DNA of 47,125 nt from an uncultured SAR86 cluster bacterium. Lineage in GTDB: Bacteria > Pseudomonadota > Gammaproteobacteria > Magnimaribacterales > D2472. The DNA is taken from NCBI GenBank assembly GCA_902515775.1, contig CABXVU010000011.1, positions 1 through 47,125 on the forward strand, in the 5' to 3' direction. The notes beneath the pieces are model-generated. The model did no database searches, was not told where the DNA came from, and saw nothing but the letters and a program-made list of their open reading frames with translations. Shown here in pieces: positions 3,721 to 20,678 of the stretch. The translations under genes and the position numbers were made by a program. Positions within the stretch are counted from its first letter, which is position 1. Each line of letters begins with the position of its first letter.

Positions 3721-4968
3721 TCAACCAGCAGAGGATGATTTTTTCTTAGAAGATTTATATACCTTAATTGGATCAGTTGAATGTAAAACAGAATTTTCAT
3801 CAACTATTACTTTCTCTAGATCGATATTTGGTAACTCAAACATTGTATCCATTAATAATTCTTCCAATATTGACCTGAGTCCTCTTGCGCCTGTTTTACG
3901 CTGCAATGCCTTTTTTGCAATCTCAACTAATGCTTCAGTCCTAAAATCTAAATCAACATCATCTATGTTGAATAAATATTTGTATTGATTCACTAAGGCA
4001 TTTTTTGGCTCCTGTAGAATTCTCACCAATGCATCTTCATCAAGCTCATGCAGTGTTGAGATTACAGGAAGCCTGCCGACAAATTCTGGAATTAAACCAA
4101 ACTTAACTAAATCCTCAGGCTCTAGTGTATCTACGATCGATGCAAGGGATGATGTAGTATCTTTAACTGTTGCCCCAAAACCTATACCAGACTTGTCAGT
4201 TCGATGTTTTATTACCTCATCAATGCCAGAAAATGCTCCACCGCATATAAAGAGTATGTTTGAAGTATCTATTTGAATAAATTCTTGCTGAGGATGCTTT
4301 CTTCCACCTTGCGGAGGAATTGAAGCAACTGTTCCCTCAATTAGTTTGAGTAACGCTTGCTGGACACCTTCGCCAGATACATCTCTAGTGATTGAAGGAT
4401 TATCAGACTTTCTTGCAATTTTGTCTATTTCATCAATGTAGACAATTCCAAGAGCAGCTTTTTCTGGATCATAATCACATTTTTGAAGTAGCTTTTGAAT
4501 AATATTTTCTACGTCTTCACCAACATATCCAGCTTCAGTTAATGTGGTTGCATCAGCGATGGTAAATGGAACATTTAATACTCTAGCTAATGTTTGAGCT
4601 AAGAGAGTTTTACCACTCCCTGTTGGGCCAAGAAGAAGTACATTACTTTTTTGCAACTCTACTTCGTCTTTTTTTGAATTGGACCTTAAACGCTTGTAAT
4701 GATTGTATACAGCGACTGAAAGGGTTTTTTTTGCTTTTTCTTGACCAATAACATAATCATCTAGCTGTTGAAAAATTTCCAGTGGAGATGGCAATATATC
4801 TAAAACTTGCTCATCTTCAGCTTTAACTTCTTCCTCAATAATATCATTGCAAAGATCCACGCACTCATCACAGATATATACACTTGGTCCTGCGATAAGC
4901 TTACGAACATCCTCTTGACCTTTACCACAGAAGGTGCAGGATAATTTATTTTTATCTTTATTTTCCAT
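3721..4968 (-). CDS. clpX: ATP-dependent Clp protease ATPase subunit ClpX
   Basis: 415 residues. The N-terminal C4 zinc-binding domain uses Cys11, Cys14, Cys33 and Cys36. The AAA+ domain has Walker A GPTGSGKT at 114-121, the pore-loop GYVGED motif and the RKH loop. ClpX unfolds tagged substrates and feeds them to ClpP. The start codon overlaps the end of clpP by 11 bp, implying translational coupling of the two partners. Confidence 0.98.
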
Positions 4969-5572
4969 TTGTATTAGGTCTAGTTTCTAGAATTTCATCA
5001 ATTATGCCGTAGCTCTTAGCTTCCTTAGCATTTAAAAAATTATCTCTGTCAGTATCTTGTTCAACTTTTTTGACAGTTTTGCCTGTATGCTTCGAGAGTA
5101 TTTCATTTACTTTCTTTTTTACTAAAAGCATTTCTTTAGCATGAATTTCAAAGTCGGATGCTTGTCCTTGGTATCCTCCTAATGGCTGGTGAATCATAAT
5201 TCGTGAATTGGTTAGTGCGAATCTTTTACCCTTATGGCCGCCGGCAAGCAATAATGATCCCATACTTGCAGCTTGGCCAATACAAAGGGTTGAAACTTCA
5301 GGAGCTACAAATTGCATGGTGTCGTAAATTGCAAGGCCTGATGAAATAACTCCGCCAGGAGAGTTAATATATATGCTAATGTCTTTTTCGGGATTTTCTG
5401 ACTCTAAAAACAGGAGTTGGGCTACCACAAGATTAGAGATGTAGTCGTCAATGGGGCCTGATAAAAAAATGATTCTTTCTTTTAAAAGACGGGAGTAGAT
5501 ATCAAAAGCTCTCTCACCTCTTGGCGTTTGCTCTACTACCATTGGCACTAGGCCAGAATTTATTTTATCCAT
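4958..5572 (-). CDS. clpP: ATP-dependent Clp protease proteolytic subunit ClpP
   Basis: 204 residues. The serine-protease triad is visible as Ser103 (GQAASMG), His128 (MIHQPLGG) and Asp177 (DRDNFL), with the spacing of E. coli ClpP. The hydrophobic SLLLAGG and INSPGG strands of the crotonase-like fold are intact. A short N-terminal propeptide is expected to be removed automatically. It lies 3 bp after tig and overlaps clpX. Confidence 0.98.
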
Positions 5573-5575
5573 AAT

Positions 5576-6877
5576 TTATTTTTTAGCTAAGTCAGAAAAT
5601 TTTATCACCTTTATCTTGGATTTAAGGGCAGAATCTAATTTTTCAATGAGTAAGTCTTCTAGTATAACCATCTTATATTGATTGATTTGCTCAGGTTGAG
5701 TTTTTATCCATGTTTTAAACTGCTCTGCATCTTTATATTTTTTAGCCTCATCTTCTATAAATTTGTTTAAATCATCTTCCCCAACTTCAAGCTCATATTT
5801 TTGAATTAATGCTGAAAATAGAAGATCTAATCGCACTCTTTTTTCAGCATTTTCTAAGAAATCTTCAACTGGGAAAAAGTCCTCAGCTGCATTTTCGACT
5901 GTTTGTCCCATTCTCATCAAGGAATCCTTTCTCATAAGGTCGGCCTGCTCATTTACAGTTGCGTTTGGCACCTTGAAGTCATTGCTTAACAAAAGTGTCT
6001 CGTACATTGATTCTTTAGTAAGAGACTTTTCTTGTTGAGCTATTTCTCCTTCCATCCGCTTATTGATTTCTGAACGAAAGCTCTCCTCATCTTTCACGTC
6101 CTCCATAGCAAGTTTCTTAAATAGCTCTTTATCAATTTTTGCTTTCGACATTTCCTGCACTTCATGAAGAGTTATAAAAAATTCAGTTTCTTTGCCGGAT
6201 AAATCTTTCTTAAAATAATCATCTGGAAATTTAGTTGTGAACGAAAAGTTATCGCCGGATTTTTTTCCGACCAAATTATCTTCAAATCCTGGAATCATGG
6301 ATTTAGATCCTATGGTAAGTTTAAAATCTTTTGATTCGTTGCCTTCAAAAGCCTCTTCATCAATCTTGCCCTCAAAATCAATAATAACTTGATCGTTTTC
6401 TTTAGCTGGTCTATCAACTTTTTTCCAAGTGCAATATCTTTCCAAAATATCATTAATGGCAAAATCTATGTCAGATTCATCAAGAGTAATTTCAGATTTT
6501 TCAAAACTCTTCCAACGAGAAATTTTTGGCTTTATCTCTGGAAAAACTTCAAATATAGCCGAATAAGAAATCGGTTTTGTTGGTTCCTCACTTTCAATGC
6601 TTATTGATGGGGATGATGCAGGTTTAATATTATTTTCCTGAAGTTCCTTGGGGTAACTTTCTTGGATTAATTCATTAAGCACCTCATAATGAATAGAATC
6701 TCCATAACGCTGCTTTAAGACATCATCAGGAACATTTCCTTTCCTGAAACCGTCAAGTTTTGCAGTAGATTTAATCTTTGAAAGTTTGCCGCCATATTTT
6801 ATTTCATAATCAGCAACTGGCACTGAAACAGTTAGCTTCCGTTCTAAATCTTTAAGTTTTTTTAATTTACTAGTCAT
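5576..6877 (-). CDS. tig: Trigger factor, ribosome-associated chaperone
   Basis: 433 residues, the usual length. The N-terminal ribosome-binding domain contains the signature loop as GFRKGN, where Asn replaces the usual second Lys; the ribosome-contacting FRK itself is intact. An FKBP-type PPIase domain follows at about 155-245 (VIIDFEGKIDEEAFEG, then MIPGFEDNLVG), then the long helical C-terminal cradle. The gene begins 17 nt after the encoded CCA end of tRNA-His. That gap contains no Shine-Dalgarno sequence, so translation probably relies on an AT-rich leader. It heads the tig-clpP-clpX-lon series. Confidence 0.97.
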   Translation of the reverse strand: MTSKLKKLKDLERKLTVSVPVADYEIKYGGKLSKIKSTAKLDGFRKGNVPDDVLKQRYGDSIHYEVLNELIQESYPKELQENNIKPASSPSISIESEEPTKPISYSAIFEVFPEIKPKISRWKSFEKSEITLDESDIDFAINDILERYCTWKKVDRPAKENDQVIIDFEGKIDEEAFEGNESKDFKLTIGSKSMIPGFEDNLVGKKSGDNFSFTTKFPDDYFKKDLSGKETEFFITLHEVQEMSKAKIDKELFKKLAMEDVKDEESFRSEINKRMEGEIAQQEKSLTKESMYETLLLSNDFKVPNATVNEQADLMRKDSLMRMGQTVENAAEDFFPVEDFLENAEKRVRLDLLFSALIQKYELEVGEDDLNKFIEDEAKKYKDAEQFKTWIKTQPEQINQYKMVILEDLLIEKLDSALKSKIKVIKFSDLAKK

Positions 6878-6894
6878 TTTATTTATCTATTTAA

Positions 6895-6972
6895 TGGGGC
6901 GAGCGATGGGGTTCGAACCCACGGCCTCCGGAGCCACAATCCAGCGCTCTAACCAACTGAGCTACGCCCGCC
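6895..6972 (-). tRNA. tRNA-His (anticodon GTG)
   Basis: Cloverleaf read on the minus strand: the seven-pair acceptor stem begins GCGGGCG. It is preceded by the histidine-specific extra G(-1), which opposes discriminator C73. The anticodon loop is TTGTGGC (GTG), the T loop is TTCGAAC, and CCA is encoded. The G(-1):C73 pair is the identity element of His tRNA and confirms the call. Confidence 0.97.
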
Positions 6973-6984
6973 AAGAAACGGAAC

Positions 6985-6990
6985 ATTATA
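6985..6990 (-). promoter_or_regulatory. Predicted -10 box for the tRNA-His (and possibly tig) transcript
   Basis: A perfect TATAAT on the minus strand is followed by a G+C-containing discriminator (GTTCCG), 12 bp before the mature tRNA 5' end. No good -35 hexamer is seen at 16-18 bp spacing. A GC discriminator is typical of growth-regulated stable-RNA promoters. Confidence 0.45.
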
Positions 6991-7031
6991 GATGTAAAAA
7001 GCGTAGATTAATATTTTTGATTAATAGAAAT

Positions 7032-7670
7032 TTATGGAAACAATGATTCATTGGGATTTTGAGGATCCCACAAATCAAAGTTTTTCATTGCATGAATAAA
7101 TAAATCAGAAGCTTCAAAAAAATTTAGCAGAGCAATGACTTTTTTAAAATTCTGTTCAAAAAACCATTCGGGGTTTGCAATTTTGTATTGACGAATAAAT
7201 GGTAGGATTGAGATATCTAACAAACTTACTTTCTCACCAAAAATCCATGGGCTTAGATTAATTTTACCATCTAATTTTTCCAGAATATTTTTACATTCCT
7301 CTTGATGCTCAGAAGAATTAGCCTTATATCTTGATGCATATTTATACCTATCTAGATGATATTTAAACTTTGAATCAAACAATTGAATCAGACTCTCGCT
7401 GATTAACTTCTCCTTAGTGGAGAAAGTATAGACACTTTCAGGATGTGATTGCATGGCCCATGAAATTATATCTAAGCTTTCCTCTAAAACTTTATTTGGA
7501 AGTTCTAATACTGGAACAGTTCCCTTTGCAGAGATCTGTAACATTTCATCCGGCTTATTTTTAAGATTGATCTCTCTTAGTTCACAATCTTTTGAAGCCA
7601 AAATAAGCGCCATACGCGCTCGCATGGCATAGGGACATCTTTTGAAACTATAAAGTATTGGTAAATTCAT
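7032..7670 (-). CDS. Glutathione S-transferase-like protein
   Basis: 212 residues. The N-terminal thioredoxin-fold domain begins LPILYSFKRCPYAMRAR, with Cys12-Pro-Tyr at the position of the omega/glutaredoxin-2-type active site. The cis-proline GTVPVLEL and the ES(L)DI glutathione-contact motif follow. The C-terminal half is all-helical, as in GSTs. It probably uses glutathione for thiol transfer or detoxification; the substrate is unknown. It overlaps trhO by 4 bp, so the two are co-translated. Confidence 0.85.
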   Translation of the reverse strand: MNLPILYSFKRCPYAMRARMALILASKDCELREINLKNKPDEMLQISAKGTVPVLELPNKVLEESLDIISWAMQSHPESVYTFSTKEKLISESLIQLFDSKFKYHLDRYKYASRYKANSSEHQEECKNILEKLDGKINLSPWIFGEKVSLLDISILPFIRQYKIANPEWFFEQNFKKVIALLNFFEASDLFIHAMKNFDLWDPQNPNESLFP

Positions 7671-8608
7671 TTTTTATTTAGTACAAAATTTGTGCCAATG
7701 TGTTTTTCGTTTCTTAGCTTTGCCAAATCAACTTGTTTTTGCCTTTCAGCGTATCGGTTTTTTTGATCAAGGGTTTTCTTATTAAAACAATTTGGACAAC
7801 TAATCCCCCTTTCATAGTGTTCTGAATTTTTATCCGATTCAGTAATTGGCATTCTGCAGCCATGGCACATGTCATAAGAGCCAACTTGCAGTTTGTGATT
7901 AACAGCTACTCTATTATCAAACACAAAACATTCCCCCTTCCAAAGAGAATCCTCTTGGTTTATTTTTTCTAGGTAATTTAAAATCCCGCCTTGCAGATGA
8001 AAGATATTTTCAAAACCTTTAGATCTCATCAAAGAAGATGCCTTTTCGCATCTAATGCCTCCTGTGCAAAACATCGCAACTCTTTTATTCTTGTCTAAGC
8101 CTGATTCTTCAACTCGTTCAAGCCATGCAGGAAATTCTCTAAAATTGGTGGTGTCTGGCTGAATAGCATTTTTAAAAGAACCTATTGAATATTCATAAGT
8201 ATTTCTGGTATCTAAAACCATCACTTCTACATCAGCAATTAATTGATTCCAATCCTCAGGTGGAATGTATTCGCCAACAATTTTTTTTGGATCGACTAAT
8301 TTATTTCCAATGGTAACAATTTCATCTTTTAATTTTATCTTTAGACGAGGAAATGGATCAAATTCACATTTTGATGTTTTAAAGTTTTTAGCTTCATATA
8401 AATTTTTGGATTTAAGAAGATTCTTAAATTTATTAATACTCGATTTTTTTCCCGCTAAAGTTCCATTTATCCCCTCAGATGCTATTAGCACTGTTCCTCT
8501 AATATCTTGGTTTGTTAAAAATTTAGTAAATTCCTTTTTCAATTGCAATAGATCTGATAAACCTATGAAGGAATAAAAAGCTGCTACTCTAAAAAGATCT
8601 TTTTTCAT
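7667..8608 (-). CDS. trhO: tRNA uridine(34) hydroxylase TrhO (rhodanese family)
   Basis: 313 residues. The N-terminal acylphosphatase-like domain includes EGINGT. The rhodanese domain carries catalytic Cys181 in CTGGIRCEK. A C-terminal Cys cluster (CHGCRMP and CPNCF) probably binds a metal. TrhO (formerly YceA) makes 5-hydroxyuridine at the wobble position of several tRNAs, using oxygen. The tRNA genes close by on the same strand are a suggestive setting but not proof of a link. Confidence 0.93.
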   Translation of the reverse strand: MKKDLFRVAAFYSFIGLSDLLQLKKEFTKFLTNQDIRGTVLIASEGINGTLAGKKSSINKFKNLLKSKNLYEAKNFKTSKCEFDPFPRLKIKLKDEIVTIGNKLVDPKKIVGEYIPPEDWNQLIADVEVMVLDTRNTYEYSIGSFKNAIQPDTTNFREFPAWLERVEESGLDKNKRVAMFCTGGIRCEKASSLMRSKGFENIFHLQGGILNYLEKINQEDSLWKGECFVFDNRVAVNHKLQVGSYDMCHGCRMPITESDKNSEHYERGISCPNCFNKKTLDQKNRYAERQKQVDLAKLRNEKHIGTNFVLNKK

Positions 8609-8651
8609 TACTTAGTTGCATATATATTAAATTTTTATAATCTCTTTATTA

Positions 8652-8735
8652 ATGAAAAAGAAAACAAAAACTAGAATTTATACTCTGATTATAACTTTTT
8701 TCATATTTTTCTATATGTTTGGGCAATACTTATAG
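8652..8735 (+). CDS. Possible 27-residue basic/hydrophobic membrane peptide
   Basis: An ATG-initiated frame encodes an N-terminus starting MKKKTKTR, then a hydrophobic stretch of about 18 residues, then TAG. The basic-then-hydrophobic pattern is that of a tiny single-pass peptide. It is divergent from trhO in a 156-bp gap. No Shine-Dalgarno sequence is evident, and AT-rich DNA yields such frames by chance, so this is weak. Confidence 0.22.
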   Translation: MKKKTKTRIYTLIITFFIFFYMFGQYL

Positions 8736-8764
8736 CAAATATCAATTAAGAAAAGTTTGTAAGA

Positions 8765-8841
8765 TGGCGCGCCTGAAGAGATTCGAACTCCTGACCCACG
8801 GTTTAGAAAACCGTTGCTCTATCCAGCTGAGCTACAGGCGC
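8765..8841 (-). tRNA. tRNA-Arg (anticodon TCT)
   Basis: On the minus strand the acceptor GCGCCTG pairs with CAGGCGC, with discriminator G and encoded CCA. The anticodon loop TTTCTAA reads TCT (AGA codons). The T loop is TTCGAAT. It lies 2 bp downstream of tRNA-Pro and must share its transcript. Confidence 0.96.
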
Positions 8842-8843
8842 AC

Positions 8844-8920
8844 TGGTCGGGGTAGTAAGATTCGAACTTACGACCACTCGCTCCCAAAGCGAGTGCGCTA
8901 CCAGACTGCGCCATACCCCG
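8844..8920 (-). tRNA. tRNA-Pro (anticodon TGG)
   Basis: On the minus strand the acceptor stem begins CGGGGTA and is closed by TACCCCG, with encoded CCA. The anticodon stem CTCGC/GCGAG encloses loop TTTGGGA (TGG, reading CCA). Pro, Arg and His genes are also clustered in the E. coli argX-hisR-leuT-proM operon. Here His has been separated by trhO and the GST gene, and no Leu gene is present. Confidence 0.96.
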
Positions 8921-8929
8921 AGACGAATG

Positions 8930-8958
8930 ATCTTAAAGTTTTAAAGTTAAATAATCAA
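8930..8958 (-). promoter_or_regulatory. Predicted promoter of the tRNA-Pro/tRNA-Arg transcript
   Basis: On the minus strand TTGATT (8958-8953) and TAAGAT (8935-8930) are 17 bp apart. Transcription would start a few bases before the tRNA-Pro 5' end. It lies in the 78-bp divergent gap with folD. Confidence 0.5.
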
Positions 8959-8998
8959 TGTCCATTGCATAAAAATTTAATGATGAGAAAATGCATCA

Positions 8999-9838
8999 AT
9001 GTCATCAAAAATCTTAGACGGTAAAGCCCTCGCAAAGTTAGCTGAAGAAGAAATTCAAACTAACGTCTCTAAACTGAAGAAAAAAGGTATCACCCCTACT
9101 TTGGCAACTATTCTTGTTGGTTTAGATCCTGCTTCAGCAACGTATGTGAAAATGAAACAGAATGCCTGCGCTAGACTTGGCATGGAATCAATTGCAGTTG
9201 AACTTAGTAAAGATACAACTACAGAAGAATTGCTAGAGTCTATCAATAATCTCAATAACGATGAAAATGTCCATGGAATCTTGTTGCAGCACCCAGTGCC
9301 TTCACAAATAAATGAGCGAAAATGCTTTGATGCAATAAATGTTCAAAAAGATGTTGATGGTGTAACTTGCATTGGGTTTGGCCAAATGACTATGGGAGAG
9401 GAAGCATTTGGTTCATGTACGCCTGCTGGGATCATGAGAATTCTTGAGCATTATCAAATTGAAATTTCAGGTAAAACTGCTGTCGTTGTTGGCAGAAGTC
9501 CTATCCTTGGAAAGCCAATGGCTATGATGCTTCTTAATAAAAATGCTACTGTAACTATCTGTCATTCGAGAACTAAAAACCTAGAAAATCAAATTAAAAA
9601 TGCAGATATTGTTGTAGGTGCTGTAGGAGTACCTCGTCTTATTAAAAAGGAGTGGATTAAAGAGGGTGCGGTGGTGATTGATGCTGGTTACCATCCGGCA
9701 GAAAAATGTGGAGATATCGATTTACATGGAATTGATAACATTGCTTCTGCGCATACGCCTGTTCCTGGAGGAGTTGGTCCAATGACAATCAATACATTAA
9801 TCTTAAATACTCTCATGGCTGCTCAAAACGAAAACTAA
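8999..9838 (+). CDS. folD: Bifunctional methylenetetrahydrofolate dehydrogenase/methenyl-THF cyclohydrolase FolD
   Basis: 279 residues, normal length. The catalytic Tyr49 and Lys53 lie in [10 protein letters not shown]. The DVDGVT and [10 protein letters not shown] substrate loops and the [15 protein letters not shown]-binding loop are intact. It interconverts 5,10-methylene- and 10-formyl-THF, supplying one-carbon units to the purine pathway (purN is encoded later in the window). Only a weak GAGA precedes the ATG. The next gene begins 1 bp after its stop. Confidence 0.97.
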
Positions 9839-16409: not shown

Positions 16410-17147
16410 ATGAAATTTTTATTGACTCTCATTGGTTTGATAAGCATGCCTTCATTTGCTGCATCAGCAGGTGATCTTCAAACTAATGATTTGACAGGGA
16501 TTTCCTTTTGGCTTGTAACAGCAGCTATGCTAGCAGCTACTGTTTTCTTTTTCGCTGAAAGAGATCAAGTTAAAGGTAAATGGAAGACATCTTTATCAGT
16601 AGCTGGTTTGGTTACTGGTGTCGCATTCTGGCACTACCTCTACATGAGAGGTGTTTGGATTGAGACTGGTGAATCACCAACAGTATACAGATATATTGAC
16701 TGGTTAATCACTGTGCCTCTTCAAATAATTGAGTTTTACTTAATTCTAAGAGTGTGTACAAATGTTTCGTCTGGTCTTTTCTGGAGACTGTTGGCTGCAT
16801 CACTAGTGATGCTTATTGCAGGATTCATGGGTGAAACTGGATATAATGAAGTAATTTGCTTTGTCATTGGAATGGCTGGATGGTTATACATCATCTATGA
16901 AGTATTTACAGGTGAAGCAGGTAAATTAAATGCCTCAAGTGGTAATGTGGCTGCACAACAAGCATTTAGTACAATCAGACTAATTGTAACTGTTGGTTGG
17001 GCAATTTATCCGATAGGATATTTCCTAACAATGGGAACAGGAGCTGATCTTGCTGGAGCGAACCTTATCTATAACCTTGCTGATTTTATCAATAAAATTG
17101 CATTTGGTTTAGCTATTTGGGCTGCTGCTGTAAGCGACTCAGAATAA
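16410..17147 (+). CDS. Proteorhodopsin, blue-absorbing type light-driven proton pump
   Basis: 245 residues with a cleavable signal peptide (about 1-17) and seven helices. Key residues keep the numbering of green proteorhodopsin through helix C: His75, Asp97 (proton acceptor, RYIDWL), Gln105 and Glu108 (donor, IIEFY). The retinal-binding Lys is at 229 (NLADFINKIAFG). Gln at 105, against Leu, is the known switch to blue absorption. The pump builds a proton-motive force that could power, among others, TonB-dependent uptake. A good Shine-Dalgarno sequence (AAGGAG) precedes the start. No carotenoid-synthesis or dioxygenase gene is nearby, so retinal must come from elsewhere. Confidence 0.97.
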   Translation: MKFLLTLIGLISMPSFAASAGDLQTNDLTGISFWLVTAAMLAATVFFFAERDQVKGKWKTSLSVAGLVTGVAFWHYLYMRGVWIETGESPTVYRYIDWLITVPLQIIEFYLILRVCTNVSSGLFWRLLAASLVMLIAGFMGETGYNEVICFVIGMAGWLYIIYEVFTGEAGKLNASSGNVAAQQAFSTIRLIVTVGWAIYPIGYFLTMGTGADLAGANLIYNLADFINKIAFGLAIWAAAVSDSE

Positions 17148-17201: not shown

Positions 17202-17277
17202 TGGTGGGTGATGACAGGCTCGAACTGCCGACCCTCTCGGTGTAAACGAGATGCTCTCCCAACTGAGCTAATCACCC
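17202..17277 (-). tRNA. tRNA-Val (anticodon TAC), host of an integrated element
   Basis: On the minus strand the acceptor starts GGGTGAT and is closed by ATCACCC, with discriminator A and encoded CCA. The stem TCTCG/CGAGA encloses loop TTTACAC (TAC). Nucleotides 1-40 (5' end through the anticodon loop) are duplicated exactly 2,982 bp away at 20220-20259. The present gene therefore seems to carry a 5' half supplied by an inserted element. Confidence 0.96.
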
Positions 17278-17279
17278 AA
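17238..17279. repeat. attL-like copy of the 42-bp direct repeat
   Basis: These 42 bp are identical to 20220-20261, in the same orientation. Bases immediately outside differ (17237 T against A; 17280 A against T). The block covers tRNA-Val nucleotides 1-40 and 2 bp beyond the 5' end. This is the signature of site-specific integration by a tyrosine recombinase at a tRNA gene, with the crossover in or near the anticodon loop. Confidence 0.92.
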
Positions 17280-17294
17280 AGTCTTTGTGGGAGC

Positions 17295-17303
17295 ATTCTA
17301 GCA
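17295..17303 (-). promoter_or_regulatory. Candidate extended -10 promoter supplied by the island to tRNA-Val
   Basis: On the minus strand TGC is followed by TAGAAT, an extended -10 box (TGnTATAAT type, one mismatch). It lies 17 bp before the mature tRNA-Val 5' end and inside the inserted segment. No matching -35 box is evident, as is usual for extended -10 promoters. If real, it restores expression of the tRNA cut off from its original upstream sequence. Confidence 0.4.
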
Positions 17304-17332
17304 ACCATAAGCAATATTTGGAATAGCTTACC

Positions 17333-17354
17333 CTGTGGCAATTCTGTGGCAAAT
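17333..17354. repeat. 22-bp tandem motif, left copy
   Basis: Two head-to-tail 11-mers (CTGTGGCAATT, CTGTGGCAAAT), identical to 20060-20081 and in the same orientation. It sits 54 bp inside the left att repeat. Possible arm-type recombinase or accessory-factor sites. Confidence 0.8.
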
Positions 17355-17696
17355 TTTCTTTGATTTTCTGAGGATTTGTTTAGTGGCGCAATGTATCGCT
17401 ATTTGCTGAAGGGCAATTTTTGGGAGGTGAAATATAGGGGGCGGTTATCAGACCTGTCCGCCCAGACTCTCTAAGACCCCTTCGCACGGATAACTTTTTA
17501 TTTTTTAGCAAATGGGATCGGTGTTTGCCACTTCAGCCACCTATGTCAAATTTATAAATATAGTTATTTAAGCAAAAATAATATTTCTCAGAAAAGCAGG
17601 AGGCTTAGAACATAAATATTTATCAATGATTTTACTGATTTGAAAAGTATTTGCATCTATCTTCATGAAGTCTTTTTTTTATATTATTATTGAAAA

Positions 17697-17999
17697 ATGG
17701 TTGGCAAGATTAAATATTCTAATTTTCTATCAATTTGCATATTGTTTTCAGCCTTTATTTTTAGCCAACTGATTGAAGCTTCTCATCTCTTTGAGGAGGA
17801 CTGCCATGAACAAAATTGTTTTATTTGCCCCAATGGTGGAGATGATAAATTTATAGCCTCGTCTCGCCAAAAGGAGGATTTAAATTTTAACCATCTTTTG
17901 AGTAAAAATTTTATTAATCAGATCTCTGGTTACCCAACCAGTACTAATACTCCAATCAGAGCTCCCCCATTTTATTATTTAGGTACTTTAAATGTATAA
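17697..17999 (+). CDS. Small secreted Cys/His protein upstream of the TonB receptor
   Basis: 100 residues. A signal peptide (about 1-28) is followed by a compact cluster of possible metal ligands: His30, Cys36, His37, Cys41 and Cys44 (HLFEEDCHEQNCFIC). A Pro-rich IRAPPF motif lies near the end. The pattern recalls small secreted Cys/His proteins, such as DUF2946 members, found beside TonB-dependent metal receptors; that resemblance is by eye and the family is not certain. Its stop overlaps the receptor start by 8 bp, so the two are translationally coupled and probably act together, perhaps as a periplasmic metal or cofactor binder. Confidence 0.65.
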   Translation: MVGKIKYSNFLSICILFSAFIFSQLIEASHLFEEDCHEQNCFICPNGGDDKFIASSRQKEDLNFNHLLSKNFINQISGYPTSTNTPIRAPPFYYLGTLNV

Positions 18000-19947
18000 C
18001 TTCAAAAAAAATATTTCTCGTTTTTTATTCCTATTAGTCTTAATTCCTGTTCTAAATATAAAACCACTCTATTCTTCGCCTTCGCATAATGCAGAGGAAG
18101 TAATTGTTGTCTCACTCAGAAATCAACGGAGCTTTGAGCAGCAACCTACACGTTTAGAAGTTCTTGGAGGCGAGGAAATCAATGAAAAAGCAAATATGAA
18201 ACCTGGCGATATACGGATGCTGTTAAATGAAATTACTGGTATACATGTCCAACAAACCTCTCCGATTAGTTTTAATTCGAGCATAAGAATTCAAGGTCTT
18301 AATGGAAAATATACTCAAATTTTACGAGATGGCATGCCTTTATATGGTGGCTTTTCTTCGGGATTAGGACTCTTACAAATTGCGCCTTTAGATCTAAAGC
18401 AGGTTGAAGTAATTAAAGGTGCTAACTCAACTTTATATGGTGGCGGAGCAATTGCAGGGTTAGTTAATCTAATTAGTAAAAAACCCAGTGATAAAAATGA
18501 AAATTCATTTCTTATTAATAAAACTTCCTCGAGGGGCATTGATTTAAGTAGTTATTCATCAATAAGAAATAAAAAATTTGACTCAACAATTTTTACGTCA
18601 TTTAACCAAAGTGGCGCATATGATCCAGCTAAAAATGGTTTTAGTGCTATTCCGGAATTTGATCGTTGGACATTTAATCCACGTATTTTTTTTGCGGGAG
18701 ACAAAAGTGAATTAAGTATTGGTTTGAATGCTATCAATGAGGACCGTATCGGCGGATACATGAAATATGTAAATAACAAAGATGATGATCCTGCATATTT
18801 TGAACAGATTAAAACAGACCGCCTATCCTCTCAAATTGAGTATATTCGATATCTTAATTCTGGTAATGAAATAGTAATCAAAAATAGTATCAACCATTAT
18901 CAGCAAGAACTAAAAATTCCAGCATATTTTTTTGCAGGCACACAAACATCAAGTTTTTCTGAGCTTCATCTTCTTGGAGCATCACAGAAATTGGATTGGG
19001 TTATTGGAATTAACTTATGGACTGAAAAATTTGATCAGGAGCAACCCCATTCATTGCAAAACTTAGATTTACAAACTAAAACATGGGGCTTATTTTTACA
19101 AGGCACTTTCTTAGTAGACGATTATTGGTCTATTGAAAGCGGCATACGAATTGATAAAACATCTAACTACGGAAGTTTTGTTCTACCGCGTATTTCTTTT
19201 TTATACACTCCTGATGAGTCCCTTTCTCTCCGTATAGGTGGAGGTTTAGGCTATAAGGAACCTTCATTATTTAATGATGAAGCTGAATCAATCAAGTATC
19301 AAAATTTGTTGCCAATAAACTCTGCTCAACTGGAAGCTGAAGAATCATCAGGAATCAATTTTGACGTTAATAAGAGTTTTGAATTTGATTCTGGCATTAA
19401 TTTAAATTTAAATCTTTTATTGTTTTATACAAAAGTTGAAAGTCCCTTAAGATTACTTAAAGTAAGTGATAATCACTATTCATTTATGCAGCCTGATGAT
19501 TACCTTGATAGTCAGGGCTTTGAACTTAGCGGTGTATTTAAATGGAATGACTGGAAATATTACTTTGGCTATACGCTTGCAGATGTTGAAATCCATCAGC
19601 AAAACAAAATTTCTAAAGCTCCTCTTATGCCAAAAGAAAGAGTGAATAATATTTTTGTATACGAACGGGAGGAAGATTTCAGAATAGGTCTTGAGGCATA
19701 TTACTATGGCGAACAAGTGCTAACAGATGGAAGTAAATCGAGAGATTTTTGGATCTATGGATTAATGATGGAAAAAATGTTTAAGAATAATTTTTCAGTA
19801 TTTCTTAATTTTGAAAACTTTTCTGATACTCGTCAGACTAAATTTGATCCAATTTATAGTGGAACTAAGCTAGACCCGATATTCTCTGATATCTATGCAC
19901 CCCTGGATGGATTTGTTATAAATGGTGGATTCAAAATAAAGCTCTAG
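17992..19947 (+). CDS. TonB-dependent outer-membrane receptor (island cargo)
   Basis: 651 residues. A signal peptide (about 1-28) leads to a TonB-box-like segment EEVIVVSLRNQ. The plug domain has the motifs IRIQGLNGKYTQILRDGMPL and VEVIKGANSTLYGGGAIAGLVN. A beta-barrel of about 480 residues follows, ending in GGFKIKL rather than the more usual terminal Phe. Such receptors import siderophores, haem, metal complexes, vitamins or glycans using TonB energy. The plug segment resembles receptors common in Bacteroidetes, hinting at lateral origin. The neighbouring Cys/His protein favours a metal-related substrate. No TonB, ABC or periplasmic transport gene is in the window. Confidence 0.9.
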   Translation: MYNFKKNISRFLFLLVLIPVLNIKPLYSSPSHNAEEVIVVSLRNQRSFEQQPTRLEVLGGEEINEKANMKPGDIRMLLNEITGIHVQQTSPISFNSSIRIQGLNGKYTQILRDGMPLYGGFSSGLGLLQIAPLDLKQVEVIKGANSTLYGGGAIAGLVNLISKKPSDKNENSFLINKTSSRGIDLSSYSSIRNKKFDSTIFTSFNQSGAYDPAKNGFSAIPEFDRWTFNPRIFFAGDKSELSIGLNAINEDRIGGYMKYVNNKDDDPAYFEQIKTDRLSSQIEYIRYLNSGNEIVIKNSINHYQQELKIPAYFFAGTQTSSFSELHLLGASQKLDWVIGINLWTEKFDQEQPHSLQNLDLQTKTWGLFLQGTFLVDDYWSIESGIRIDKTSNYGSFVLPRISFLYTPDESLSLRIGGGLGYKEPSLFNDEAESIKYQNLLPINSAQLEAEESSGINFDVNKSFEFDSGINLNLNLLLFYTKVESPLRLLKVSDNHYSFMQPDDYLDSQGFELSGVFKWNDWKYYFGYTLADVEIHQQNKISKAPLMPKERVNNIFVYEREEDFRIGLEAYYYGEQVLTDGSKSRDFWIYGLMMEKMFKNNFSVFLNFENFSDTRQTKFDPIYSGTKLDPIFSDIYAPLDGFVINGGFKIKL

Positions 19948-20219
19948 TTAATTAATTTTTAAGCAAAAAATAAGTTTTCTTGACTTCCTAATTGCGAGCA
20001 TTCTCATTGTAGGTCTGGGTCTTTTTCTGAGTTATTTGAAGTTATATGAGAAAGTAATTCTGTGGCAATTCTGTGGCAAATCTAGACCGCATTCCCTCGT
20101 TGAGTGCTGATTAGGATTGCTGGATTTTAAAAATGCTATTTTCCGTAAATCCTTTGTTTAAGAGACATACGGAGCATCTTGGGTCTCTCTTTTGAATTGA
20201 GGAGCAATTCTTCATCAAA
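19948..20219. other. Gene-free right arm of the island
   Basis: About 270 bp without a convincing gene. It holds the right 22-bp motif (20060-20081) and two inverted repeats: AGAGAC/GTCTCT (20161-20188) and GAATTG-AGGAG-CAATTC (20194-20210), the latter 9 bp from the right att repeat. Neither is followed by a clear U-run. The stretch 19954-20100 is open with one hydrophobic run but lacks a start codon, and may be a gene remnant. Confidence 0.5.
20060..20081. repeat. 22-bp tandem motif, right copy
   Basis: Identical to 17333-17354 and in the same orientation, about 140 bp inside the right att repeat. The unequal distances from the two ends resemble the asymmetric arms of attP sites. Confidence 0.8.
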
Positions 20220-20261
20220 CGGTGTAAACGAGATGCTCTCCCAACTGAGCTAATCACCCAA
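20220..20261. repeat. attR-like orphan 5' half of tRNA-Val
   Basis: An exact 42-bp copy of 17238-17279. It contains tRNA-Val nucleotides 1-40 but no 3' half, so it cannot make a tRNA. It begins 3 bp after the stop codon of the SnoaL-like gene. The ancestral order was therefore probably EamA, SnoaL-like, tRNA-Val on the minus strand. Confidence 0.92.
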
Positions 20262-20264
20262 TAT

Positions 20265-20678
20265 TTAGGATATAGCCTTAAGCTGATCTTCCATTTTTTG
20301 ATAATCCCAAAAGGCGCGTAATGATACTATTTTATCATTAGAATTTACACGATAAATAACAATCATTTGTGTTTCAATTTTTACATCACCAACAACATTA
20401 ACGATCTGAGCAAAATTAGCGCACTCATCTGCGCATGGAATAGATTCCAAAATATTGAACTCAATGTCTCCATTTGCAATTACCGTATCATAAAATTTTT
20501 CAATTGCCTCTTTACCTTTATGGCCATCTCCAACCGGATCTAATGGGCTCTTCCCTATTGGGTCCTGAACTATGGCGTCTTCAGCAAACAAATCTAACCA
20601 GTTTTGTTTATCTTTTGCTACTGCATAATCTCTGGAAAGAAATCCTAGTGCTTGAGCTTTAGTCTTAGGTTTCATCAT
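20265..20678 (-). CDS. SnoaL/ketosteroid-isomerase-like protein (NTF2 fold)
   Basis: 137 residues. The N-terminal segment NWLDLFAEDAIVQDPIG matches the NTF2-fold steroid-isomerase/SnoaL pattern, with the Asp of QDP at the place of the catalytic base. HKGKEAIEKFYDTV and a final AFWDYQKM strand complete the cone. The substrate is unknown. A strong Shine-Dalgarno sequence (AAGGAG) precedes a double ATG. It overlaps the EamA transporter gene by 14 bp, so it is probably expressed with it. Confidence 0.8.
   Translation of the reverse strand: MMKPKTKAQALGFLSRDYAVAKDKQNWLDLFAEDAIVQDPIGKSPLDPVGDGHKGKEAIEKFYDTVIANGDIEFNILESIPCADECANFAQIVNVVGDVKIETQMIVIYRVNSNDKIVSLRAFWDYQKMEDQLKAIS

Follow-up and report, generated by a model that had tools for sequence, protein, structure and literature searches.

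How do bacteria of the SAR86 cluster, which are abundant, streamlined and hard to culture, acquire new genes? One locus, where a TonB-dependent receptor gene lies beside a tRNA-Val gene, bears on this question. The window, meaning the whole stretch of DNA analysed, is a 47,125-nt contig of an uncultured SAR86 bacterium (CABXVU010000011.1, assembly GCA_902515775.1), one contig of a 1.26-Mb, 36-contig genome that is 78% complete. An intact tRNA-Val gene with anticodon TAC, recognized by ARAGORN and Rfam, lies on its minus strand at 17202-17277. The repeat search detected an exact 42-bp direct repeat on the same strand, with copy 1 (attL) at 17238-17279 and copy 2 (attR), a displaced 5' tRNA fragment, at 20220-20261. 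Each copy corresponds to tRNA-Val positions 1-40 plus 2 nt upstream, and two matches were found in none of 100 shuffles with three mismatches allowed. The 2,940 bp between the copies contain two intact genes. A sequence-only reading of this DNA had already described the repeat, at the same coordinates, as coming from the 5' half of tRNA-Val. The island sits where the nearest relatives have an empty site, and it is bounded by these part-tRNA-Val repeats together with paired tandem motifs.

For the comparison with relatives, 26 genomes of the same genus were searched with the protein of the SnoaL-like gene that flanks the island (20265-20678, minus strand). A true orthologue was present in 19 genomes besides the window's own, and those 19 loci were read; the remaining six gave distant SnoaL matches only, uninformative for the locus. 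Twelve of the 19 (G005, G007, G013, G014, G015, G016, G017, G018, G019, G020, G021 and G023) have an empty site, in which a single intact tRNA-Val abuts the SnoaL gene, which lies directly upstream. Since the closest relatives, G015, G016 and G020, with 91-97% DNA identity over the genes compared, are all empty, the window island is by parsimony a gain. A different island was found in the same tRNA-Val in G004 and G009 (2/19), on the other side of the tRNA, and G008 (1/19) has a 1.2-kb insert whose left end matches that of the window island (88.7% over 97 bp). Both an empty site and alternative cargo, the two states of relatives that the sequence-only reading had named as support for an inserted element, are thus present in the genus. 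In the last four loci (G010, G025, G001 and G002), genes lie between tRNA-Val and SnoaL, namely a short-chain dehydrogenase, plus HlyIII in G025 and G002; we rejected these as islands because no second tRNA copy was seen, and took them as ordinary neighbours.

The G004 island is about 4.5 kb long and is spanned (locus L040, about 4,920-9,380). An intact tRNA-Val bounds it on one side and, on the other, a chimeric copy, positions 31-76 of which are perfect. Its cargo includes a PvuRts1I-like/SRA protein, for which PADLOC gives a type II methyl-directed restriction enzyme as the best match; four other open reading frames (ORFs) tested are without a family match in Pfam and PADLOC, as are three of them in PHROGs. 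In G009, the two island ends were seen on two contigs. A non-coding 96-bp module at the right end of the window island (20018-20113, plus strand) is common to G004 (85.4%) and G009 (86.5%), this 85-86% identity comparing with 72-82% for the neighbouring genes. Such likeness bears on the possibility that the island is a chimera of assembly or binning, which one might consider as only one assembly of the window genome was seen. A random join would not be expected to yield matched end motifs, nor an architecture shared with G004 or ends homologous to those of G009 and G008, and we regard a chimera as the least credible of all the explanations considered. A 34-bp right-end match to a gene in G009, G020 and G011, which we read as that of ribosomal protein L5, is probably due to chance.

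The two islands also point to the place of crossover. The tRNA fragment of the window island covers positions 1-40 and that of the G004 island positions 31-76; because they overlap only at 31-40, which contains the 7-nt anticodon loop (32-38; TTTACAC at 17240-17246, minus strand), we infer that the crossover takes place at this loop. The anticodon loop is one of the three crossover places in tRNA genes given by the Islander authors (PMC4383910, in the part available). That the island integrated at the anticodon loop by means of a tyrosine integrase is, in our judgement, nearly certain. The window island and that of G004 seem to share this loop and the orientation of their ends but to differ in which half of the tRNA they rebuild, the 5' half for the window island and the 3' half for the G004 island. 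In the window, the 3' part of the tRNA-Val at 17202-17277 is that of the host, while the 5' part, up to the anticodon loop, would have been supplied by the island.

Replacement of the 5' half concerns the promoter as well. At empty sites, only a few bases separate the SnoaL gene from the tRNA-Val behind it, and the two are probably co-transcribed. Once the island is inserted, the window tRNA would require a promoter. The left end of the window island (17278-17332, minus strand) is a putative tRNA promoter region. Its first 31 bp beyond the tRNA are identical in G008 and contain a likely extended -10 element that would serve tRNA-Val, TGCTAGAAT, the last six bases of which lie at 17295-17300. 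A consensus promoter scan revealed no excess of sites (13 versus a mean of 14.2), and the TGCTAGAAT -10 is not in its list. In G008, a degenerate second copy of the left-end segment lies near the SnoaL gene (L048, 9381-9420; 82.5% over 40 bp) and is perhaps left over from an island that occupied this tRNA earlier.

A second perfect repeat pair, absent from the sequence-only reading, is located just inside both island ends. It is 22 nt long and lies in the same direction at 17333-17354 and 20060-20081 (plus strand); 55 bp separate the left copy from the tRNA, and 138 bp separate the right copy from the tRNA fragment. The repeat consists of two tandem copies of an 11-bp unit with the GTGGCAA motif, CTGTGGCAATT CTGTGGCAAAT. 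Among the 26 genus genomes, GTGSCAANNNNGTGSCAA occurs five times, every time at an island end; a reversed control pattern gave zero matches in the genus scan and in the scan of 107 family genomes. The motif variant is in step within islands: the window island has GTGG at each of its four copies, and the G004 island has GTGC at each of its four, as do both copies seen in G009. The GTGGCAA tandem was found in 11 viral contigs, near-copies included, which form about five families by eye, four with an integrase. An integrase-like ORF lies at most 210 bp away in ten of the 11 contigs, compared with one of 21 contigs with the reversed pattern (Fisher p ~0.002 for 4/5 vs 1/21; 2e-6 for all contigs). 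Four representatives of the viral integrases beside the motif were scanned with Pfam: three have both the integrase catalytic domain and the arm-binding domain, and the fourth shows only a SAM-like integrase domain. The pairs change in step as the arm sites of a tyrosine integrase would, and they are likely to be such sites.

These putative arm sites bear on the idea that the Xer recombinases of the host integrated the element, as happens with integrative mobile elements exploiting Xer (IMEX). Two Xer-sized PF00589 proteins, of 303 and 306 aa, are the only ones found in the window genome, which would fit. Compared with IMEX, the core of the window island is the anticodon arm, and the target would be the anticodon loop of a tRNA rather than dif. 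Moreover, the arm-like sites found at both ends suggest an integrase that possesses an arm-binding domain, as do three of the four viral integrases scanned beside the motif, and integration by Xer seems very improbable.

We then looked for a recombinase in the island itself and in the host. A home-made integrase profile, applied to ORFs of at least 40 aa, had no match in the window island, the whole window, the G004 and G008 islands or the G009 ends. On the coding strand, the window island has two ORFs of at least 70 aa, the opposite strand having only ORFs of 74-78 aa within the receptor gene, and neither of the two matched the int, alpA or primase families. A relaxase is also unlikely, since these two ORFs encode the receptor and a 100-aa protein of no known family. 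This content, a small Cys/His protein and a TonB receptor without recombinase, agrees with what the sequence-only reading had reported, and the search for a tyrosine recombinase in the host that it had proposed returned the two Xer-sized proteins and no other in the assembly, 78% complete. Each of the 26 genus genomes encodes one or two PF00589 proteins of about 300-320 aa, taken from their size and ubiquity to be XerC and XerD. Beyond these, PF00589 genes were found only in G018 (529 aa) and G013 (a 106-aa fragment). The G018 integrase (L103, 4903-6492) has an arm-binding domain and lies on an 8-kb contig that starts with what we read as a DNA-polymerase-like fragment, possibly a piece of a SAR86 prophage. 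The G013 fragment (L104, 6988-7443) adjoins tRNA-Ser(TGA); between the two there is a direct repeat of 10 bp with 12-bp spacing, and the fragment may be what is left of another tRNA island that had arm sites of its own.

An island without integrase could have arisen by deletion: an element with its own integrase would have inserted and later lost the gene, leaving an immobile island with its ends, like a cis-mobilizable element (CIME). CIMEs are common where they were searched for (in the available part of PMC7563491), the G008 insert looks like a relic of an integrase-losing kind, and the genus holds two PF00589 genes beyond the Xer-sized ones, of which one is a fragment. However, both ends and both genes of the window island are intact, and no integrase match remains among the ORFs of at least 40 aa in the window and G004 islands, two differently loaded islands that both lack the gene. 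The time for such a loss would also be limited, because G015, at a dS (synonymous substitutions per site) of 0.13-0.19 from the window genome, is without the insertion. We consider loss after insertion a possible but rather unlikely history. Our preferred explanation, which we hold to be probable, is that the feature is a small cargo-only integrative element whose integrase is supplied in trans; of these two origins for the missing gene, supply in trans is the likelier one by a fair measure.

Several observations weigh against supply in trans by an integrase that reads the tandem motif. The single left pair of G008 has ATGGCAA followed by GTGGCAA, and hence fails the pattern, and the G008 insert is without a right tRNA fragment. 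The 107 family genomes gave two further motif matches, of mixed variants, and neither has an integrase within the 3 kb that were read around it. In the class-wide scan of 369 genomes, the sole match outside the window's genome lies within an ORF, again with no integrase in the 3 kb read around it. The viral count of ten in 11 includes near-identical contigs, none of them known to infect SAR86, and depends on the home-made profile. In the helper search of the viral contigs, the core plus arm, right-end module and GTGC-variant patterns each gave 0 contigs, and the receptor was found in none. No circular form of the island was seen. Finally, as the window genome is 78% complete, an integrase could sit in the missing part.

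The search for a parent or helper among cellular genomes gave the following. In the 26 genus genomes, no parent element with the arm motif or an extra integrase beside the motif was found. Integrases with the arm domain PF13356 are present in three of the 107 family genomes, two above the cut-off; these (L103, L142 and L144) were rejected as helpers, since the stretches read around them are without the paired motif. Four viral contigs with a 35-bp piece of tRNA-Val were likewise rejected as carriers of att sites, the piece being part of a tRNA-Val among three to five tRNA genes. In one viral contig (L119, 3224-3299), a tRNA-Val identical to the window's gene lies among five tRNA genes. The lack of viral contigs with the receptor or the exact right-end pattern counts weakly against packaging by a helper phage. 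The sequence-only reading had held that the element must borrow its integrase: such borrowing is plausible, as an inference, and the "must" goes too far, given the 78% complete genome, a helper search that found none and the rival of loss after insertion.

The first cargo gene (17697-17999, plus strand) encodes the 100-aa Cys/His-containing protein, which we read as secreted; it belongs to no family in Pfam, PHROGs, NCBIfam or PADLOC, and its SHLFEEDCHEQNCFICPNGGDDKFIASS is invariant among three homologues. The second (17992-19947, plus strand) encodes the 651-aa TonB-dependent receptor, with the plug (PF07715) and barrel (PF00593) domains. By sequence, its nearest solved chains are the colicin I receptor and BtuB, with partial and weak matches. 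A non-coding segment of about 70 bp is also common to both islands (window 17431-17500 and L040 6707-6640, 72%). Tested as a packaging or replication signal, it was discarded as evidence: an exact 19-bp pattern from it is in no viral contig and it shows no unusual fold. In the 107 genomes, it gave outside the window genome only a borderline 30-bp match in G012, at a threshold insensitive enough that the G004 copy itself falls below it.

Homologues of the receptor are present in G005 and G024, with 89% and 86% protein identity, in what looks like an ordinary chromosomal setting, beside a dehydrogenase and a weak ceramidase match (below the Pfam cut-off), the neighbourhood in G024 being assigned by similarity to that in G005. 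The ceramidase-like gene occurs in ten of the 26 genus genomes and not in the window's as assembled. In the other 23 of the 26, all receptors found are distant (best E 1e-13 or weaker); since the completeness of these genomes is 55-92%, absence is not proven for each one. Compared with G005, the receptor has a dS of 0.47 and the small protein one of 0.70, whereas the five flanking genes reach 1.51, 1.60, 1.64, 1.69 and saturation (EamA). The receptor is thus closer to its G005 homologue than the flanking genes are to theirs (dS at least 1.5), and its dN/dS is 0.12; these values show that the cargo was acquired horizontally and is under purifying selection. Against G024, the receptor dS is 0.86, a value without flanking genes for comparison. 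Site-specific integration of a cargo-only element, as the sequence-only reading had proposed, is well supported by the horizontal cargo, the empty sites in 12 of 19 loci, the other island in the same tRNA, the coordinated arm-like sites and the anticodon-loop crossover.

On the other flank lies a rhodopsin gene (16410-17147, plus strand; PF01036). At this port, the rhodopsins of G001, G002, G005, G007, G008 and G025 are 59-62% identical to that of the window and the G010 piece 63%, the other genomes having the gene being at 85-99%. Against G005, the rhodopsin dN (nonsynonymous substitutions per site) is 0.30, twice the 0.14 of xseA, which suggests allele replacement.

Elements of this kind are already known, as CIMEs and as the tRNA-repeat cassettes of marine flexible islands. 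CIMEs, as presented in the available part of PMC7563491, are decayed derivatives of integrative and conjugative or integrative and mobilizable elements (ICEs, IMEs), with which they move by accretion; they are flanked by att sites and carry cargo only, with no recombination or transfer genes. The window island likewise keeps its att sites, no recombination or mobilisation genes were found in it, and its size fits the 1.2-13 kb of classical CIMEs, but no ICE or IME parent was seen for it. The tRNA-targeted cassettes of additive flexible genomic islands also belong to streamlined aquatic hosts, whereas arm sites, crossover point and matched variants do not figure in their descriptions in the available parts of PMC7771536 and PMC10872708. 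Tycheposons, as described in part of PMC10872708, share the tRNA target, nutrient-type cargo and streamlined marine host; they measure 4-200 kb and carry a tyrosine recombinase, whereas the window island has 3 kb of cargo at a tRNA boundary and none was found. The likeness to tycheposons drawn by the sequence-only reading therefore holds in spirit only. PICMI and other phage satellites are small marine islands at fixed chromosomal sites too, but PICMI carries int, alpA and primase, none of them found in the window island, and the excision of known satellites requires satellite-encoded integrases (PMC10803314, in part). Seen as a tRNA-targeted island of the tyrosine-integrase type, the window island has the intact tRNA, the displaced fragment in direct orientation and the empty site in relatives, and no integrase gene was found inside it. 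The islands in tRNA genes of Islander, which requires that gene and so would miss this island, share the anticodon-centred crossover and the restored tRNA; the window island is, in our reading, of the rarer 5'-fragment type (159 islands versus 3,760 in the other, presumably 3', class; PMC4383910, in part). In the open-licence literature, covered by titles and abstract starts with most subscription papers outside this scope, we found no description of such an element. What seems new is that two integrase-free islands both have matched arm variants, and that the tRNA is rebuilt in two ways at one site.

These data lead us to propose the following mechanism. A circular form would carry the anticodon loop, the tRNA 5' half, a promoter and two arm sites, and a tyrosine integrase that binds the arm motif would recombine it with the host tRNA-Val, the exchange taking place at the anticodon loop; we hold this much to be strongly indicated. 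The loop would be the point at which the host tRNA is severed, and the element would restore the gene with its own 5' half and promoter, while the original 5' half, now displaced, marks the far end. With less certainty, the integrase would come in trans from a phage or other element with the same arm and core specificity. Any DNA with both ends could then bring varied genes into the site, a swap port that would have taken up a receptor gene in one case (the window genome) and a restriction enzyme gene in the other (G004). The route for swapping nutrient receptors suggested by the sequence-only reading depends on the one receptor case, the only other cargo of known family being the restriction enzyme. 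More tentatively, SAR86 could harbour a family of integrase-free islands with two ends and swappable cargo, one tRNA-Val anticodon-loop target and orientation, arm sites co-varying with the integrase of a particular helper, and two forms, rebuilding the 5' half with a promoter or the 3' half; these would live off a foreign integrase as true parasites and carry receptors and phage-defence genes from one species to another.

For SAR86, a port of entry, the crossover point, the likely arm sites and a lineage related to the cargo's donor can be read from sequence. The tandem 11-bp motif combined with the tRNA core provides a search signature for islands that are skipped by integrase-requiring finders such as Islander. 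The presence of a receptor and a restriction enzyme in one port suggests that it may serve to exchange functions in both nutrient uptake and phage defence.

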